From an uncultured Lacinutrix sp. (lineage in GTDB: Bacteria; Bacteroidota; Bacteroidia; Flavobacteriales; Flavobacteriaceae), in NCBI GenBank assembly GCA_937916035.1, contig CALGIH010000052.1, positions 1-11,106 on the forward strand: a stretch of 11,106 nucleotides of DNA. The letters run 5' to 3'. This document shows positions 43-7,403 of this stretch, piece after piece. The notes below the pieces were generated by a model. It had not been told where the DNA came from, did no database searches, and saw only the letters and a list, made by a program, of their open reading frames with translations. Both the position numbers and the translations under genes were made by a program. Each line of letters begins with the position of its first letter. Position 1 is the stretch's first letter.

Positions 43-3000
43 TTAATCTTCTACAATAAAATAGGTTAAGTTTTTAGCATTAAAAGACGCATTAAAAGCT
101 TTAATTTCTTTATCTACCAGATTGTTAAACATTCCTAATTGTTCATTAATTTTTTGCGTTAATTCATTTTTTACTGCAATATCTTGTTCTGTAGGAGCAA
201 AGTCTCCTCCACCTACTAACGAATTTAAATGAGCAAGTTTATTATTAAGTCTAATTGGAAAATTTAATGGATCCTGTCCGCTTCTGTTCTGCGTTTGGTA
301 TAACGCTTTTTCAATTTCAGAGAATTGTTCTTTTAATGTTTTTGCTTTTTCTACTAAATCTTTAACAGTATCATCGCCTTTATATTGCGCCATAAAAGCT
401 TCTAACTTACCATTAATATTTCTAATTTTTTTAATGGATTTATGTGTGTTATCCAGTGTTTTATTAATATCCTCTATGAAGACGAATTGTTTTTTCATAT
501 CCTCTAAGGTGCTTTCAGCTCTAGGGTCTGCTAATATGGTAAACGCTTGGCTTAGTGTTTCGCCATTTACATTTAAACTTACCTTATAATTTCCTGGAAC
601 AGCTCTAGGACCTCTTAAACTCCCTGACCACATTATCATTCCTGGGAATCGATCTGCACCATCATAAACCATGTTCCAAACAAATTGATTGTTTCCTTTT
701 TCAACAGATAACTTATCTTCCTTAGACTTAGTGCTAAATGTTTTAATGGTATCGCCTTTAGTGTCAAAATAGGTTAATGATACTTCATCCTTTTCATCAT
801 ACTTATTCAAGTTAAAATATGTGATAATTCCTGATTCAAGGTTAGTACCATTTGTTTTACTTCCTTTTATACTTCCGCCACCCATTCTATAAGAATCCTT
901 AGGCTTAAATAAAATATTTGCTGAAGCATTCTTGTTGTACAACTGATGAATGACTGTTAAATCGTCAAGCATCCATAGACTTCGTCCTTGAGTGGCTACA
1001 ATTAAACTATTCTCTTTAATCGTTAAATCTGTAATTGGAACAATTGGTAAATTTAATTGGAATGGTTTCCAGTTTTTACCATCGTCGAAAGAAATATACA
1101 TTCCAGTTTCTGTTCCAGCATACAACAATCCTTTTTGTTTTGGGTCTTCACGAACTACTCTTGTAAAATGTTCTGCATCAATCCCATTTGTGATTTTTGT
1201 CCATGTTTGTCCGTAATCGGTTGTTTTGTACAAATAAGGTGCAAAATCACCAGTTTTGTATTTAGTTCCTGCGATGTAGCAAGTTCCTGCATCATAAATA
1301 CTTGGTTCAACACTATTAATCATCATCCATTCTGGCATTCCTTTAGGAGTTACATTTTCCCAAGATTCACCACCATTTCTAGTTATATGAACTAAACCAT
1401 CATCACTACCAACCCAAAGTAAACCTTCTTGTAAAGCTGATTCGTTAGCTGCAAAAATGGTGCAATAATACTCAACAGCTGTATTGTCTTGAGTAATTGG
1501 TCCACCTGAAGATTTTAGTTTTTCAGGATCATTACGTGTTAAGTCAGGACTAATAATATCCCAAGATTGACCTTCGTCTTCTGTAACATGAACACTCTGT
1601 GAAAAAGTATATAATCTCTTCGGATTATGTTTTGAGAAAATTATAGGGAAATTCCACTGAAAACGGTATTTCATACCTTCAGCACCATGACCCATGGGAT
1701 TATCTGGCCAAACATTTATAGCTCTCGATGTACCGCGTTCATGATTAACGCGTGTTAAATAACCACCATAACTTCCACCATACACAATATTATCATTTTC
1801 AGGATCAATAGCGATATGTGCCGATTCTCCTCCAGCTGTATCTTCCCAGTCATCTTCTGTAATAGATCTACCATCTGTTCTATGTTGAATTCTTACTGTT
1901 GAATTATCTTGCTGTGCCGCATAAATTCTATATGGAAAATGATTATCGGTTGTTACACGATAAAATTGTGCAGTTGGTTGATTATGATACGTACTCCAAG
2001 TTTCTCCACCATCATAGGTTACTTGTGCACCACCATCATCTCCTATAATCATTCTATTTGAATTTTCAGGAGCAATCCATAAATCGTGATGATCTCCATG
2101 AGGTGCATTATAAGTACTAAATGTTTTTCCTCCATCTGTACTTTTATGATATTCAACGTTCATTACGTAAACCTTATCAACATCCTCAGTATCTGCATGA
2201 ACTCTTGTATAATACCAAGCACGTTGGCGCAATTTTCTTTCGTCGTTAACTTGTGTCCAGTTATCACCACCATCATCACTTCTGTATAATCCACCTTTTT
2301 CTTTATTTTCAACAATCGACCAAACACGTTGATTATTTACTGGAGATACTGTAACTCCAATAATTCCTAAGGTGTCTGTCGGGAAGCCCTTATTTTTTGA
2401 AATCTCTTTCCAAGTTTCTCCACTGTCAGTACTTTTCCATAAAGCAGAACCTTCGCCTCCAGAATTTAAACTATATGGTGTTCTATTAATTCGCCAAGTA
2501 GAAGCATATAAAATCCTTGGATTTGTAGGATCCATCTGTAAATCTACAACACCAGCATTTGCATTTGCAAACAGTGTTTTCTTCCATGTTTTTCCTCCAT
2601 CGGTACTTTTATAAACGCCTCGTTCTTGAGTTGGTTTGTATAAATTCCCCATTACACCTGCGTAAACAATGTCAGAATTTGTAGGGTGAACAGCAATTCT
2701 TGGAACATGTCTAGAGTTTTTTAATCCAGCAGAAGTCCATGTTTTTCCAGCATCTTCTGTTTTCCAAATTCCATATCCTGATGAAACATTTCCTCTTACG
2801 GTTTGTTCACCTCCTCCTACATAAATTACATTGGGATCGCTTTTTGAAACAGTTATAGCTCCAATACTTCCTCCAAAATAGCCGTCAGAAATATTTTCCC
2901 ATTCTCTTCCTCCATCGGTAGTTTTCCAGATTCCACCCCCAGTTGCTCCAAAATAGAACAAGTTTGGCTCGTTTGGAACTCCTGTTACAGCAGCACTTCT

Positions 3001-3132
3001 TCCACCTCTAAAAGGACCAACGAGTCGATACTCTAAAGCATCATATTGGTCTTCATTAATTGTTTGTGCATTGATTTGCGTGTGACTTAACAGCAATAGA
3101 AACATCGCTGAAATAATAGTTAATAATCTCAT
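43..3132 (-). CDS. Exported VPS10/BNR (Asp-box) repeat protein, 1029 aa
   Basis: A complete minus-strand gene. The N-terminus is a signal peptide: a short basic start, a hydrophobic core at residues 3-16, and a likely cleavage after Ala22, so the protein is exported. Eleven Asp-box motifs of the form S/T-x-D-x-G-x-T-W are visible near residues 71, 125, 176, 234, 285, 331, 372, 517, 584, 637 and 681. Such motifs mark the blade hairpins of sialidase/sortilin-type beta-propellers, and this number fits two propellers in tandem. A His-rich stretch (HGDHHD, 345-350) follows the sixth box. After about residue 730 there is a beta-rich domain with a typical PGNYKV turn (846-851), then a charged helical tail (about 870-1015). 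Family members are often named 'glycosyl hydrolase', but I see no glycosidase active site. Secretion to periplasm or surface is inferred. The tail does not look like a type IX secretion sorting domain. The substrate or partner is unknown. Confidence 0.93.
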   Translation of the reverse strand: MRLLTIISAMFLLLLSHTQINAQTINEDQYDALEYRLVGPFRGGRSAAVTGVPNEPNLFYFGATGGGIWKTTDGGREWENISDGYFGGSIGAITVSKSDPNVIYVGGGEQTVRGNVSSGYGIWKTEDAGKTWTSAGLKNSRHVPRIAVHPTNSDIVYAGVMGNLYKPTQERGVYKSTDGGKTWKKTLFANANAGVVDLQMDPTNPRILYASTWRINRTPYSLNSGGEGSALWKSTDSGETWKEISKNKGFPTDTLGIIGVTVSPVNNQRVWSIVENKEKGGLYRSDDGGDNWTQVNDERKLRQRAWYYTRVHADTEDVDKVYVMNVEYHKSTDGGKTFSTYNAPHGDHHDLWIAPENSNRMIIGDDGGAQVTYDGGETWSTYHNQPTAQFYRVTTDNHFPYRIYAAQQDNSTVRIQHRTDGRSITEDDWEDTAGGESAHIAIDPENDNIVYGGSYGGYLTRVNHERGTSRAINVWPDNPMGHGAEGMKYRFQWNFPIIFSKHNPKRLYTFSQSVHVTEDEGQSWDIISPDLTRNDPEKLKSSGGPITQDNTAVEYYCTIFAANESALQEGLLWVGSDDGLVHITRNGGESWENVTPKGMPEWMMINSVEPSIYDAGTCYIAGTKYKTGDFAPYLYKTTDYGQTWTKITNGIDAEHFTRVVREDPKQKGLLYAGTETGMYISFDDGKNWKPFQLNLPIVPITDLTIKENSLIVATQGRSLWMLDDLTVIHQLYNKNASANILFKPKDSYRMGGGSIKGSKTNGTNLESGIITYFNLNKYDEKDEVSLTYFDTKGDTIKTFSTKSKEDKLSVEKGNNQFVWNMVYDGADRFPGMIMWSGSLRGPRAVPGNYKVSLNVNGETLSQAFTILADPRAESTLEDMKKQFVFIEDINKTLDNTHKSIKKIRNINGKLEAFMAQYKGDDTVKDLVEKAKTLKEQFSEIEKALYQTQNRSGQDPLNFPIRLNNKLAHLNSLVGGGDFAPTEQDIAVKNELTQKINEQLGMFNNLVDKEIKAFNASFNAKNLTYFIVED

Positions 3133-3219
3133 TATTTAGTTGGTTTAGTTATGAACTATTAAAAGTAATAATAAATTCTTAGTACTTATAATATCTTTAG
3201 AGTTTTAACTATTAATTCA

Positions 3220-3254
3220 CTCAAAATAGCTTTGAAGTTAAAAGTTGTTTTGAG
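3220..3254 (+). other. 14-bp stem-loop that pairs best as plus-strand RNA
   Basis: The arms CTCAAAATAGCTTT (3220-3233) and AAAGTTGTTTTGAG (3241-3254) form a 14-pair stem with a 7-base loop. Two pairs are G-U wobbles (3227 with 3247, 3229 with 3245). In RNA from the opposite strand the same positions become C-A mismatches, so the structure favours a plus-strand transcript. No U-tract follows, so it does not look like an intrinsic terminator. The function is unknown, and the AT-rich setting makes chance possible. Confidence 0.35.
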
Positions 3255-3338
3255 GCTATGTCATACAAGCGATACTAATCCCTTTAGCTTTTCTAATTTA
3301 GAACATTAGATTCATTAACTGGAAAAGGGCTTGGCTCA

Positions 3339-3473
3339 TTAAAATTCAAAAGTTATAGTTTCAATTTTATCGCTTTCATTTTAATAGGTTAAAACAAAAA
3401 CACCATCTCTAATTTTTGTTTCATCAAAAGTACTTTTTGCGACATTTTCATTCATAAAAATTTCTTTTGTCAT
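3339..3473 (-). pseudogene. Short coding-like remnant with an internal stop
   Basis: Reading the minus strand from the ATG at 3473 gives a 30-codon frame that begins MTKEIFMNENVAK and ends RDGVFVLTY at a TAA (3381-3383). The same frame continues without interruption as NESDKIETITFEF to a second TAA at 3339-3341. The composition on both sides of the first stop (acidic and polar residues alternating with Ile/Phe/Val) looks like real protein. After the second stop, a shifted frame reads NEPSPFPVNESNVLN. This is what a decaying gene with a nonsense change and a frameshift would look like. The first 30 codons could instead be a genuine small protein. I recognise no family. It lies upstream of the Asp-box gene in the same orientation. 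Confidence 0.3.
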
Positions 3474-3663
3474 TCTGTTTTTTTCAAATCCTTAAAGCTT
3501 AATAGTCAAAATATCATAGGTTAAAATTCAAAAATATTATACCTAATTCAAAATGTAAATAAAAAATCATTAAATTATAAGTAGCGCTCTTTTGCCGTTG
3601 TTTTTAACTTAAAAAAACACTTTTTAAATTAGAAATGTATTAATTATTAACACAAAAAACTCC

Positions 3664-3671
3664 TAACTTTG
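3664..3671 (+). promoter_or_regulatory. Bacteroidota -7 promoter box (TAACTTTG)
   Basis: TAACTTTG matches the Bacteroidota primary-sigma -7 consensus TAnnTTTG exactly. It lies 69 bases upstream of the HemC-HemD start codon, predicting a leader of roughly 60-65 bases. At -33 there is TTA (3644-3646) rather than TTG, at a 17-base spacing, so the upstream element is imperfect. This is the best promoter candidate for the HemC-HemD/EI24 transcript. Confidence 0.5.
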
Positions 3672-3684
3672 AAAAAATTTAAAA

Positions 3685-3721
3685 TTGAAATTTTGTTATT
3701 AAAACTAGCACTAAATTTCAA
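3685..3721 (+). repeat. 9-bp inverted repeat in the HemC-HemD leader
   Basis: TTGAAATTT (3685-3693) and AAATTTCAA (3713-3721) are perfect inverted copies separated by 19 bases. They lie between the predicted transcription start and the ATG at 3741. They could form a weak leader hairpin or a protein-binding site. With only A/T and single G/C pairs in such AT-rich DNA, a chance origin is quite possible. Confidence 0.25.
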
Positions 3722-3740
3722 CCTGAAGATTCAATAAAAC

Positions 3741-5315
3741 ATGTCTAAAATTATAAGAATTGGTGCCCTAAACAGTCCATTAGCTTTATGGCAAGCAAAT
3801 GCTGTTCAGCAAATGCTTGAAAAATTAGATCAAAAATCTGAGGTTGTTTCTGTGCAATCAACAGATGATTTAAATCAAAACAAACCAATTAACGAAACAT
3901 TTACACATGCTTTAGATAATGAAATGCTAAGTCAGAACATAGACATCGCTGTACATTCTTTAAAAGATGTTCCGTTTTTATTGACCAAAGGTATTGTTCA
4001 AGCTGCTGTAATAAAGCGAGGTAATTTTAAAGATGTCCTTGTTTTTAAAAATAACGAAGAATTTTTATCTCAAAAGGACGCTATAATTGCTACTGGAAGT
4101 TTACGATGTCGTGCACAATGGCTTAATAGATATCCAACACACACCATCGTTGATTTACGTGGTGATTTAACATCGCGATTACAACAAACTGAAGATACTA
4201 ATGAATGGAATGGTGCAATATTTGGAGCTGCTGGATTAGGAAGACTTGGGTTAAAGCCTGAAGACTCAGTCAACTTAGATTGGATGATTCCGACTCCTGC
4301 TCAAGGCACCATTGTAATTACAGCTTTAGAGGAAAACGAAGAAATTAGAACTATTTGTGCAGAACTTAATCATGAAGAAACAAAAATTTGCACACGTATA
4401 GAACGAGAGTTTTTAAATTTACTTGGCGGAGATTCTACAGCTCCAATTGGAGCTTTAGCTTACATTAAGGAAGTAGAAGAAGAAAAAGAAGTCCACTTTA
4501 AAGGCGTTTTATTCAGCCCAGATGGAAGCAAGAAAATTGAAGTAATTCGTGTTGAATCTCTTAGCACTTATCATGAAATAGCTCCTTACTGTGCCGATTT
4601 TATTATAGAACGAGGAGGTAAAAGTTTAATGGATACCATTAAGGGTTCATCACAAAAAACCAATATCTATTCTACTAAAACTTTAACAACAGACCAACGT
4701 TTGTTATTTAATGAAAAAGTAGTTGCTGAAAGCTCTGATTTTATCAAATTTAGCTTAAACAGAATTAAACCTCAGATAGTCCGAAACCCAATAGAAAATG
4801 TAATTATTGCTAACAAAAATTCGGTAGAGGCATTGCTCCAAAATTTTTCGGCTGTTGAACTACAATTCAAAAATATTTACTGCGTTGGTCGACGTACAAA
4901 ACGATTGGTAGAAAAAAGAATTGGACCAGTAAAACACACCGAAAAAAACGAAAAAGAATTAGCTGAGTATTTAGTTGGTTATATTGAAGGGACTGAAGCA
5001 ACTTACTTTTGTAGTGATTTATATGAAGATGATATATCAACTATTTTGAGTGATCAAAACATAAAAGTTAACGAAGTTGAAGCCTACCAAACAAAATATG
5101 ATGCTGAAAGTGTTAAAGAATCTGTTGAAGGTATAATCTTTTATAGTCCATTAACAGTCCAAAGTTATTTGAAAGAAAACGATCCAAACAAAATTGCATT
5201 TTGTATTAATGAAACTACTGCTGCTGAAGCCAAAAAGAAATTTGAAGATGTACGGATTGCAAAATTGCCAACAGTAGAAAGTATTATAGAATTAGTAAAC
5301 GAACATTTCGCTTAA
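3741..5315 (+). CDS. hemC: Diverged HemC-HemD fusion (hydroxymethylbilane synthase-like plus uroporphyrinogen-III synthase-like)
   Basis: Residues 1-300 are HemC-like: RIGALNSPLALW (6-17), IAVHSLKDVP (69-78, catalytic-type Asp76), TGSLRCRAQW (118-127), DLRGDLTSRL (138-147) and the PIG turn (235-237). Residues about 309-524 are HemD-like: CVGRRTKRLV (381-390), YSPLTVQSY (468-476) and the TTAAEA segment (492-497). HemC normally makes hydroxymethylbilane from four porphobilinogens, and HemD closes and inverts it to uroporphyrinogen III; both are cytosolic. Ordinary HemC is about 300 residues, so 524 fits a fusion. The active site is eroded. The dipyrromethane-bearing Cys (E. coli Cys242) aligns with Ser232, Arg11 with Leu10 and Arg132 with Cys123. 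The mobile loop carrying Lys55 and Lys59 is five residues shorter and lacks both lysines. The frame is intact, so the gene looks maintained. Assignment to the family is secure; catalytic activity is doubtful. It is followed after three bases by the EI24 gene. Confidence 0.88.
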   Translation: MSKIIRIGALNSPLALWQANAVQQMLEKLDQKSEVVSVQSTDDLNQNKPINETFTHALDNEMLSQNIDIAVHSLKDVPFLLTKGIVQAAVIKRGNFKDVLVFKNNEEFLSQKDAIIATGSLRCRAQWLNRYPTHTIVDLRGDLTSRLQQTEDTNEWNGAIFGAAGLGRLGLKPEDSVNLDWMIPTPAQGTIVITALEENEEIRTICAELNHEETKICTRIEREFLNLLGGDSTAPIGALAYIKEVEEEKEVHFKGVLFSPDGSKKIEVIRVESLSTYHEIAPYCADFIIERGGKSLMDTIKGSSQKTNIYSTKTLTTDQRLLFNEKVVAESSDFIKFSLNRIKPQIVRNPIENVIIANKNSVEALLQNFSAVELQFKNIYCVGRRTKRLVEKRIGPVKHTEKNEKELAEYLVGYIEGTEATYFCSDLYEDDISTILSDQNIKVNEVEAYQTKYDAESVKESVEGIIFYSPLTVQSYLKENDPNKIAFCINETTAAEAKKKFEDVRIAKLPTVESIIELVNEHFA

Positions 5316-5318
5316 AAG

Positions 5319-6083
5319 ATGTTTAAAAACATTTTCATAGGACTTAAAGCATATGCTGGAGCTTTTGAGTTAATCTCAAAACTTAAACTATGGAAGTATT
5401 TTGTAATTCCAATTCTTATTAGTGTTGTAACTGCTGTCGTTATTGGCCTTTATGCTTATGGATTTTCAGATAATATTGGTCAATTTATTTCAAAGATTTG
5501 GGTTTGGGAATGGGGAAAAGAAACCTTTACAACCATAAGTGAAATATTTGGAGGTATAATCATTATTGTTCTAGGACTAGTTTTGTACAAACACATCATA
5601 ATGGCATTATCTGCTCCTTTTATGAGTCCTGTTTCTGAAAAAATAGAAGCTCATTTATTAGGTGAAAATTCTAAATTAATCCATCAACACAGAAACACGT
5701 CTTTTCAAGAACAACTTTGGCGAGGTATTAGAATTAACCTTCGAAATTTATTCATGGAATTATGGCTAACTGCCATTATCCTAATCATCAGTTTAGTTCC
5801 TGTAATTGGTTGGTTTACATCGTTATTACTCTTCTTCATCCAAGCTTATTATGCTGGATTTGGTAATATGGACTACACATTAGAACGTCATTTTAAATAT
5901 AAAGAAAGCCTAACTTTTGTTAGAAAAAATAGAGGCATTGCCATTGGTAATGGTATTGTATTTATGCTGTTTCTATTAATTCCTGTTGTTGGAGTTATTC
6001 TTGTGCTACCATTATCTGTGACTGCTGCTTCAACTGAAACAGTGAAGTTATTAAATGCACAAAATCGTCAAAATATAAATTGA
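5319..6083 (+). CDS. EI24/CysZ-like integral membrane protein
   Basis: This 254-residue inner-membrane protein has hydrophobic segments at about 27-48, 75-98, a long hairpin-like stretch at 143-176, and 207-236. These are separated by hydrophilic loops. The SAPFMSPVSEKIE segment (98-110), the YYAGFGNMDYTLER segment (177-190) and the following basic RKNRG (202-206) are the pattern I associate with the EI24 domain family, which includes the sulfate transporter CysZ. In flavobacteria an EI24 gene commonly sits among heme-synthesis genes, but its substrate there is not known to me. Only three bases separate its ATG from the stop of the HemC-HemD fusion, so co-transcription and probably translational coupling are expected. 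Transport of a tetrapyrrole precursor or a sulfur compound is speculation. Confidence 0.85.
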   Translation: MFKNIFIGLKAYAGAFELISKLKLWKYFVIPILISVVTAVVIGLYAYGFSDNIGQFISKIWVWEWGKETFTTISEIFGGIIIIVLGLVLYKHIIMALSAPFMSPVSEKIEAHLLGENSKLIHQHRNTSFQEQLWRGIRINLRNLFMELWLTAIILIISLVPVIGWFTSLLLFFIQAYYAGFGNMDYTLERHFKYKESLTFVRKNRGIAIGNGIVFMLFLLIPVVGVILVLPLSVTAASTETVKLLNAQNRQNIN

Positions 6084-6092
6084 TTTCTTAAC

Positions 6093-6119
6093 TTTCAAGA
6101 AGAATTTACATTCTTGAAA
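6093..6119 (+). repeat. Perfect 9-bp inverted repeat abutting a start codon
   Basis: TTTCAAGAA (6093-6101) and TTCTTGAAA (6111-6119) are perfect inverted copies around a 9-base spacer. The right arm ends on the base before the ATG at 6120. It fills most of the 36-base gap between the EI24 stop and the serine hydrolase start. As RNA it would fold over the ribosome-loading region; as DNA it would be a 27-bp dyad operator. No U-tract follows, so it is a poor intrinsic terminator. Which role it has, if any, cannot be told from sequence. Confidence 0.5.
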
Positions 6120-7403
6120 ATGCATAACAAAACATTATTATTTTTTCTTATCACTGGAAACCTTGTTTCGGCGCAATTAACTTATAATACTCCAGAATCT
6201 GTTGGATTAAATTCAAGTTACATTGAATTCAATGTAGACTCTATCATGAATGATGCAATTAATCAGAAAGCATTTCCTGGAGCACAATTATTGGTTGCCA
6301 AAAAAGGTAAAATCATCTTTCATAAAACTTATGGCTTTCATACTTATGATAGTGTTCAAAAGGTAGCTAAAGATGACATCTACGATCTAGCATCTGTAAC
6401 CAAAATTGTTGGACCGCTTCCAGCACTTATGAAACTGTATGAAGAAGGCAAAATAGATCTTGATGCTCCTTTTAGCAATTATTGGACATCATGGAAAAAT
6501 CGTAAAGACAAAAAAGATATTACGCTTCGCGAACTCTTATCTCATCAAGCAGGAATGAATCCATACATCGTATTTTTATGTGAAGTTTTAAAAAACGGGA
6601 CGCCTAAAAATCGATTTATTAAAAAGGAGTCAGAGAAACGTTATTCAAAAAAGGTTTATAACAATTTGTATGTGAAAAACAGGTTCAATAAGAAAGTGTT
6701 TAGAAAAATTAAACGCTCAAAAGTAAGTAATGATAAGACTTATCAATATTCAGGATTGGCTTCATTAATTTACCCAACACTTATTGAAAAAATTACTGGC
6801 GAAAACTATGAAGACTACCTCAACAAAAACTTTTATAAGCCATTAAGCTGTGAGGTTTTGGGATATAATCCACTCACCAAAAACTTTAAAAATAATATTG
6901 TTCCAACAGAGTTAGATTCATTTTTTAGAAAAGATTATGTAAAAGGTTATGTACATGATGAAAATGCAGCACTGTTAGGGGGTGTTTCAGGCAACGCAGG
7001 ATTATTTGCAACAGCTTTAGATTTGGGAAAGTATATGCAAATGTTGCTCCAAAAAGGGACTTATGACGGAACACATTTCTTTAAACCTTCAACAGTTGAT
7101 GCGTTTACTAAAATACAATATCCAGAAAATAATAATAGACGCGGTTTAGGATTTGATAAACCAATAATAAGAAATGACACCTTAAGTATTAAAGAAGCAT
7201 ATCCAGCGCCACAAGTGAGCCCGGAGAGTTTCGGGCATTCAGGGTTTACAGGAACATTTGTTTGGGCAGATCCAGCAAATGACATTGTTTTTATATTTTT
7301 ATCCAATCGAGTTTATCCAACAAGGAGTCATACAAATATTTACAATTTAAACGTTCGTCCTAAATTACAGCAAGTCTTTTATACGAGTCCTAAATCTGAA
7401 TGA
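6120..7403 (+). CDS. Exported serine hydrolase, beta-lactamase/penicillin-binding fold
   Basis: I place the start at the ATG at 6120 (427 residues). An in-frame TTG at 6114 lies inside the inverted repeat and is less likely. Residues 1-18 form a signal peptide with likely cleavage before Gln19. The catalytic SxxK is Ser92-Val-Thr-Lys95 within DLASVTK. The second-motif Tyr is probably Tyr210 (YSG, where relatives often have YSN or YSD). The third motif is the HSG of GHSGFTGT (His373). GGVSGNAGLFAT (287-298) is also characteristic. A very basic segment at about 158-202 forms the lid or insert between motifs one and two. Homologous domains occur alone or fused behind family-3 glycosidases in Bacteroidota. 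The likely role is periplasmic hydrolysis of a peptide, amide or ester, perhaps in cell-wall metabolism; the substrate cannot be given. Confidence 0.88.
   Translation: MHNKTLLFFLITGNLVSAQLTYNTPESVGLNSSYIEFNVDSIMNDAINQKAFPGAQLLVAKKGKIIFHKTYGFHTYDSVQKVAKDDIYDLASVTKIVGPLPALMKLYEEGKIDLDAPFSNYWTSWKNRKDKKDITLRELLSHQAGMNPYIVFLCEVLKNGTPKNRFIKKESEKRYSKKVYNNLYVKNRFNKKVFRKIKRSKVSNDKTYQYSGLASLIYPTLIEKITGENYEDYLNKNFYKPLSCEVLGYNPLTKNFKNNIVPTELDSFFRKDYVKGYVHDENAALLGGVSGNAGLFATALDLGKYMQMLLQKGTYDGTHFFKPSTVDAFTKIQYPENNNRRGLGFDKPIIRNDTLSIKEAYPAPQVSPESFGHSGFTGTFVWADPANDIVFIFLSNRVYPTRSHTNIYNLNVRPKLQQVFYTSPKSE

Follow-up and report, generated by a model that had tools for sequence, protein, structure and literature searches.

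A cysteine-less HemC-HemD fusion, probably retained as a pseudoenzyme, in Flavobacteriaceae genomes lacking hemB and hemE

Hydroxymethylbilane synthase (HemC) binds its dipyrromethane cofactor through a thioether to a cysteine that has been called invariant (PMC3949521). The nearest parallel to the protein described here is the TrpC-TrpF pseudoenzyme of Leucomyxa plasmidifera, a biosynthetic fusion which was judged inactive from its mutated residues and has been kept, in an undefined role, without the rest of its pathway (PMC11528492). Closer to our locus, Flavobacteriaceae sp. S0825 is presented in PMC11139205 as a strain without the heme pathway that grows on heme, blood or cytochrome c, and for which uroporphyrin I and protoporphyrin IX, among other compounds, fail to replace hemin; the terms hemC, hemD and hydroxymethylbilane are absent from the paper's text. 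By strain name, locus L090 and protein P0016 of our data set belong to S0825. Searches of the open-licence literature yielded no description of a HemC without this cysteine, or of a retained one.

The gene under study (3741..5315, forward strand) lies in the window, that is, the whole 11,106-nt stretch of DNA that was analysed. It starts with ATG and encodes a fusion of 524 amino acids, comprising a HemC half with a degenerate active site (3741..4640, +), delimited by profile and alignment, and a uroporphyrinogen-III synthase-like HemD half (4641..5315, +), which in clade A, the group of Cys-less proteins around the window, shows the stronger conservation of the two halves. In profile searches the protein matches PF01379 (4e-48), PF03900 (7e-7) and PF02602 (1e-20), and it exceeds the curated cut-offs of PF01379 (164 bits against 22.1) and of TIGR00212 hemC (212 bits against 164), as does its HEM4 domain for PF02602 (74 bits against 27.5). 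The protein of G151, which is of the same genus as the window's genome, falls below the TIGR00212 cut-off with 144.9 bits.

Alignment with E. coli HemC bore out most of what the first-pass annotation had read from the active site. Ser232 (codon tct, 4434..4436, +) occupies the place of Cys242, the dipyrromethane-bearing position, and is preceded by Asp231 where Gly is normal; Arg11 has become Leu10 (3768..3770, +), Arg132 has become Cys123 (4107..4109, +), the TGD motif reads TDD (Gly45 to Asp42), and the flap loop is five residues shorter. Lys75, Asp76, Arg122, Arg140, Arg146 and Arg168 are retained as had been noted, corresponding to Lys83, Asp84 (the catalytic Asp), Arg131, Arg149, Arg155 and Arg176 of E. 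coli, so that the cluster of arginines that bind pyrrole carboxylates has lost Arg11 and Arg132 and kept the other four. The same annotation had pointed to the loop carrying Lys55 and Lys59 in E. coli: the deletion stands and is meaningful against normal Flavobacteriaceae HemC, but the missing lysines are uninformative, because normal Flavobacteriaceae HemC has mostly Glu and Thr at those positions. A sequencing error at 4434-4436 was considered and rejected, since the same Ser is found in the nearest homolog, P0001 (97% identical), and across a clade.

Three protein searches, with the best 120 matches of each, gave 301 different homologs, and among these listed matches the cofactor Cys is absent from 29 and present in 272, a proportion that is no estimate of frequency because the homologs are those closest to three Cys-less queries. 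At the Cys position the 29 proteins have Ser (13), Asn (4), Phe (4), Arg (2), Gln (2) or Thr, Tyr, His and Leu (one each), and all of them are fusions of 508-531 amino acids. In trees built from chosen rows (56 and 50), the Cys-less proteins fall into clade A and a separate group (clades B, C and D) among Lutibacter-like sequences. In these trees the Ser is common to a clade, and the Cys was lost at least twice, the losses falling in two or more groups of Flavobacteriaceae.

The members of clade A group together in the HemCD trees (support 99/86 and 95/36) and with the HemD half alone (74/93). In contrast, the flanking genes put the normal Pontimicrobium aquaticum amid the genomes with a Cys-less gene and reject the union of these in a single clade (p-AU 2e-6 without G151, 2e-42 with it), whereas the clade that they support is rejected by HemCD (p-AU 5e-4). 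Such a conflict points to either transfer of the locus or convergence. The HemCD tree and an upstream element shared by five of the six loci seem to favour a single origin of clade A, and transfer by recombination would explain both signals, convergence being a possible alternative. Across the genes of the G374-S0825 locus dS ranges from 0.09 to 0.44, and this unevenness between neighbouring genes is consistent with recombination.

The losses do not appear to be spread evenly over the protein. At positions where 97% or more of 113 normal proteins share one residue, that residue is kept by the 17 clade-A proteins in 133 of 255 cells of the active site, 1670 of 2125 in the remainder of HemC and 1306 of 1513 in HemD, and residue loss in clade A is, as judged from the alignment, concentrated on the active site. 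In the two clade-B proteins the figures are 16 of 30, 165 of 250 and 121 of 178, and for these two rows the apparent bias is slight. Even arginines kept in the window protein are unevenly preserved in clade A (Arg149 in 2 of 17 rows, Arg155 in 9 of 17). The catalytic Asp position is better off among the 29 Cys-less homologs, with Asp in 20, Glu in 5, Lys in 2 and Asn and Gln in one each, and the Asp or Glu kept in most of them could allow some residual catalysis.

It might be supposed that the window protein still works as a hydroxymethylbilane synthase, with its primer anchored in another way, for instance through Cys123 or Ser232. The six retained residues would agree with this, as would the distribution of Cys at the Arg132 position, which occurs in 11 of the 29 Cys-less homologs, in several groups, and in none of the 272 normal ones among those listed. 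However, the other 18 have Arg (7, P0001 included), His (7) or Gln (4) there. Cys, His and Gln are each reached from an Arg codon of the CGN type by a single transition, and relaxed constraint is thus enough to account for them, striking as the recurrence of Cys across the Cys-less groups is.

Further evidence against continued synthesis comes from the genomes. Seven genomes with a Cys-less hemCD were searched, namely G000 (the window's metagenome-assembled genome (MAG), 62.8% complete), G151 (97% complete), G152, G153, G146, G337 and G374 (100% complete). Leaving the mixed-looking G154 apart, hemB and hemE were absent from all seven and hemH from six, the exception being a doubtful copy in G000; the absence of hemA and hemF was judged at the locus. 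The normal genomes G149, G150 and G207 carry hemB, hemE and hemH. A second, canonical hemC in the same genome, which the first-pass annotation had proposed to look for, was not found in any of the seven; G151 and G374 have one HemC match each, which is degenerate, and the 62.8% complete MAG of the window likewise has a single match. Since hemB is absent there would be no known primer to anchor, and S0825 requires heme. We therefore regard an active enzyme with another anchor as extremely improbable, and the window protein can hardly be making hydroxymethylbilane for heme. Of the two possibilities originally offered for the Cys-less protein, loss of hydroxymethylbilane synthesis is favoured by the missing hemB and hemE and by the heme auxotrophy of S0825, and anchoring through Cys123 is contradicted by the Arg of P0001 and by the genomes without hemB.

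Two contigs deserve separate mention. In the MAG of the window a ferrochelatase gene (hemH) lies with araC on contig C160 (locus L130, G000:C160:1340-2353); its best listed matches are in other genera (71% identity to a Kordia locus against 62% to the congener), for which reason the contig is treated as a probable foreign contaminant. G154 carries hemB, hemE, and both a normal and a Cys-less hemCD, the latter at its usual place (L034) and the former on a contig (L132) that carries canonical hemA-hemCD-hemB together with a hemL-like gene. Because the gene order of L132 differs and its HemCD identity is at most 61% among the matches listed, this contig is probably foreign and G154 probably a mixed bin.

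A survey of the family gave a consistent picture. Among 397 genomes, HemC was found in 359 and hemB in 353; when the lists were compared by hand, HemC stood without hemB in 8 genomes and hemB without HemC in 2, and 36 had neither. Where the HemC score is weak (E above 1e-55, a threshold chosen after the data were seen), hemB is absent from 5 of 7 genomes, against 3 of the 352 with normal scores (Fisher 2.4e-8, an optimistic value because the surveyed genomes are related). The two weak-scoring genomes with hemB are G297, which has masked bases, and G079, whose gene was matched in two pieces, and the three hemB-less genomes among the 352 are MAGs that are 64, 89 and 68% complete. G284 and G339 have hemB and no HemC match, perhaps as incomplete assemblies.

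The locus itself tells the same story of pathway loss around a gene that stayed. In the congeners L135 and L033 and in P. aquaticum (L131), the order is a sortilin-like gene, hemH, araC, hemA, hemCD, hemE, EI24, hemF, hemB, serine hydrolase, CNNM and MGMT, the hem genes being named by NCBIfam from L135; other relatives gain or lose genes. In the window and in L090, L128, L036 and L034 the neighbours are kept and hemH, araC, hemA, hemE, hemF and hemB are absent, leaving hemCD alone. By synteny, hemH, araC and hemA are missing from the junction at 3133..3740, hemE from that between hemCD and EI24 (5316..5318), and hemF and hemB from that between EI24 and the serine hydrolase (6084..6113). Profile and synteny identify the conserved neighbours as a Sortilin/VPS10-like protein upstream (43..3132, -) and, downstream, an EI24/CysZ-like membrane protein (5319..6083, +) and a serine hydrolase of beta-lactamase fold (6114..7403, +). 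The 15-kb stretch of the G151 locus (L129) retains araC and hemCD and is additionally devoid of EI24, the serine hydrolase and MGMT. No neighbour gene is constant across all the Cys-less loci, as G151 lacks EI24 and the neighbours in genus g147 are unrelated. In g147 (L126 and L127), the Cys-less hemCD has Arg at the Cys position and lies among genes for a TPP-enzyme, an iron alcohol dehydrogenase, a LytTR protein and a short-chain dehydrogenase, and no known heme gene was seen around it in these two stretches.

A gene left behind in this way could be a decaying relic, a functionless and eroding leftover whose purifying selection is only apparent or dates from an older functional ancestry. The preferential loss of active-site residues would fit such a relic, and so would the 36 surveyed genomes in which HemC and hemB are both gone. 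Moreover, the dN of hemCD exceeds that of most flanking genes in distant Cys-less pairs (0.167 against 0.033-0.157 for G374-L036; 0.150 against 0.067-0.119 for the window and G374), although not in G374-S0825 (0.021 against 0.004-0.035). However, the annotation's claim that the gene is under selection held for both domains of two close pairs of Cys-less genes, where the dN/dS intervals exclude 1 and the frames are open: HemC 0.13 (95% interval 0.07-0.22) and HemD 0.23 (0.14-0.38) for G146-G337, and HemC 0.35 (0.18-0.76) and HemD 0.08 (0-0.24) for G374-S0825. Whole-gene values are 0.17 and 0.23, respectively, and since the one close normal pair has 0.13 (0.05-0.27), a difference between Cys-less and normal genes is unclear at close range. 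In more distant pairs the Cys-less values (0.14-0.18) are two to three times those of normal pairs at comparable distance (0.06-0.08), which indicates that the constraint is relaxed, yet present. The uniform length of the 29 Cys-less homologs and the disappearance of araC and five adjoining heme genes from around a hemCD that stayed also argue against a relic.

The upstream region provides a further argument. A sequence scan located a 25-bp promoter-like element, TTAACACAAAAAACTCCTAACTTTG, at 3647..3671 (+), 70-94 bp ahead of the hemCD start codon in the window; this TAACTTTG element contains the Bacteroidota -7 motif TAnnTTTG at 3664-3671. When 137 sequences (1.92 Mb) were scanned for matches with no more than four mismatches, it was found only upstream of clade-A Cys-less hemCD. 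The copies of the window, L090 and L128 are exact, whereas that of L036 has one mismatch and that of L034 two; two further rows are duplicates of the window and L128. G151 has a weaker version, beyond the four-mismatch limit, g147 has the TAACTTT part alone, and none of the normal hemCD loci scanned has the element. Further copies that might suggest a regulon were not found in the loci or in 361,896 bases (about 11%) of G152. The window and L128 share an identical run of 42 bp upstream, with a hemCD dS of 0.86, which speaks against decay, and we consider a relic unlikely. Several-fold dS differences between adjoining genes were seen at the close loci L090/L128 and L135/L033, which suggests recombination at this site of the chromosome.

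Selection could also act solely against misfolding of an expressed protein that has become useless, so that the active site drifts and structural residues are held. This predicts the observed pattern, in which the active site is lost first, but the simplest fate of a useless expressed gene is deletion, as befell the neighbours, and the conserved promoter-like element argues for expression that is wanted; we find this explanation very improbable.

A different possibility is that the HemD half alone matters, acting as a uroporphyrinogen-III synthase on an imported linear tetrapyrrole or in a HemD side function, with the HemC half as a passive scaffold. In agreement with this, the HemD invariants are the best kept in clade A, and dN/dS of HemD is below that of HemC in G374-S0825. 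However, the order is reversed in G146-G337, with overlapping intervals, and hydroxymethylbilane, of which the genome is predicted to have no source, is unstable, its import being improbable. In addition, a stand-alone HEM4 frame of 249-253 amino acids is present in all seven Cys-less genomes and a HEM4 match in 18 of 20 HemC-less genomes tested, and because stand-alone HEM4 is so widespread, HemD activity alone gives no obvious reason for retaining the fusion. This explanation seems to us rather unlikely as well. The stand-alone HEM4 protein (about 250 amino acids; G000:C115:5650-6279 and its equivalents) occurs in many genomes of the family, some of them HemC-less, in which its role can hardly be heme synthesis; in a Bacteroides control, HEM4 matches and PF01379 and PF00490 do not.

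Taken together, the protein fits the family model of HemC and lacks the cofactor Cys, the complete arginine cluster and a supply from hemB. It has lost catalytic residues and retained its family domains at the sequence level, and the dN/dS intervals below 1 and the clade-A element speak for maintenance by selection. We consider it probable that this is a HemC-HemD pseudoenzyme, kept for a non-catalytic role once the bacterium had stopped making heme. The heme pathway genes around hemCD have disappeared, as have the cofactor Cys and several active-site residues, whereas the reading frame, both domains at the sequence level and, in clade A, the upstream element have stayed; the protein would accordingly have ceased polymerising porphobilinogen. 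The non-catalytic job may have been a prior side function of the fusion or may have been acquired after pathway loss. Granted the pseudoenzyme explanation, our leading, though tentative, candidate for this job is that the HemD half, together with the two-domain HemC cleft, reversibly binds heme or some other tetrapyrrole taken up from outside, and would so serve as carrier, buffer or sensor in heme-scavenging cells. More speculatively still, HemC-HemD fusions might hide a second function, and in several lineages that abandoned heme synthesis the catalytic site might have been dropped and the protein re-used, under its own promoter, as a heme or tetrapyrrole carrier or sensor serving scavenging; since 36 genomes have neither hemB nor HemC, the supposed function would be dispensable in other heme-less lineages.

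A Cys-less HemC lineage under selection is unusual, because textbooks give the dipyrromethane cysteine as invariant in a pathway that is nearly universal, and the repeated survival of hemCD after pathway loss suggests that HemC-HemD has a role besides catalysis which has gone unrecognised. Annotators should be wary as well, as databases name the Cys-less proteins hydroxymethylbilane synthase and could count them toward a heme pathway. Compared with active HemC (PF01379 plus PF03900, TIGR00212; PDB 1pda, 4htg and 4mlq), the window protein belongs to the same family, scores above the cut-offs and keeps the catalytic Asp and part of the Arg cluster, whereas the cofactor Cys and other active-site residues are gone, the flap loop is shortened and neither hemB nor hemE is found in the genomes. 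The normal fusion of P. aquaticum (P0009, L131) shares the architecture, the neighbours and 77% identity with the window protein; in contrast, it is surrounded by a complete heme cluster, retains the Cys and the Arg residues and has no 25-bp element upstream. The Leucomyxa TrpC-TrpF fusion resembles the Cys-less hemCD in having outlived its pathway, but it is an unrelated enzyme and a plastid protein of a protist (PMC11528492).
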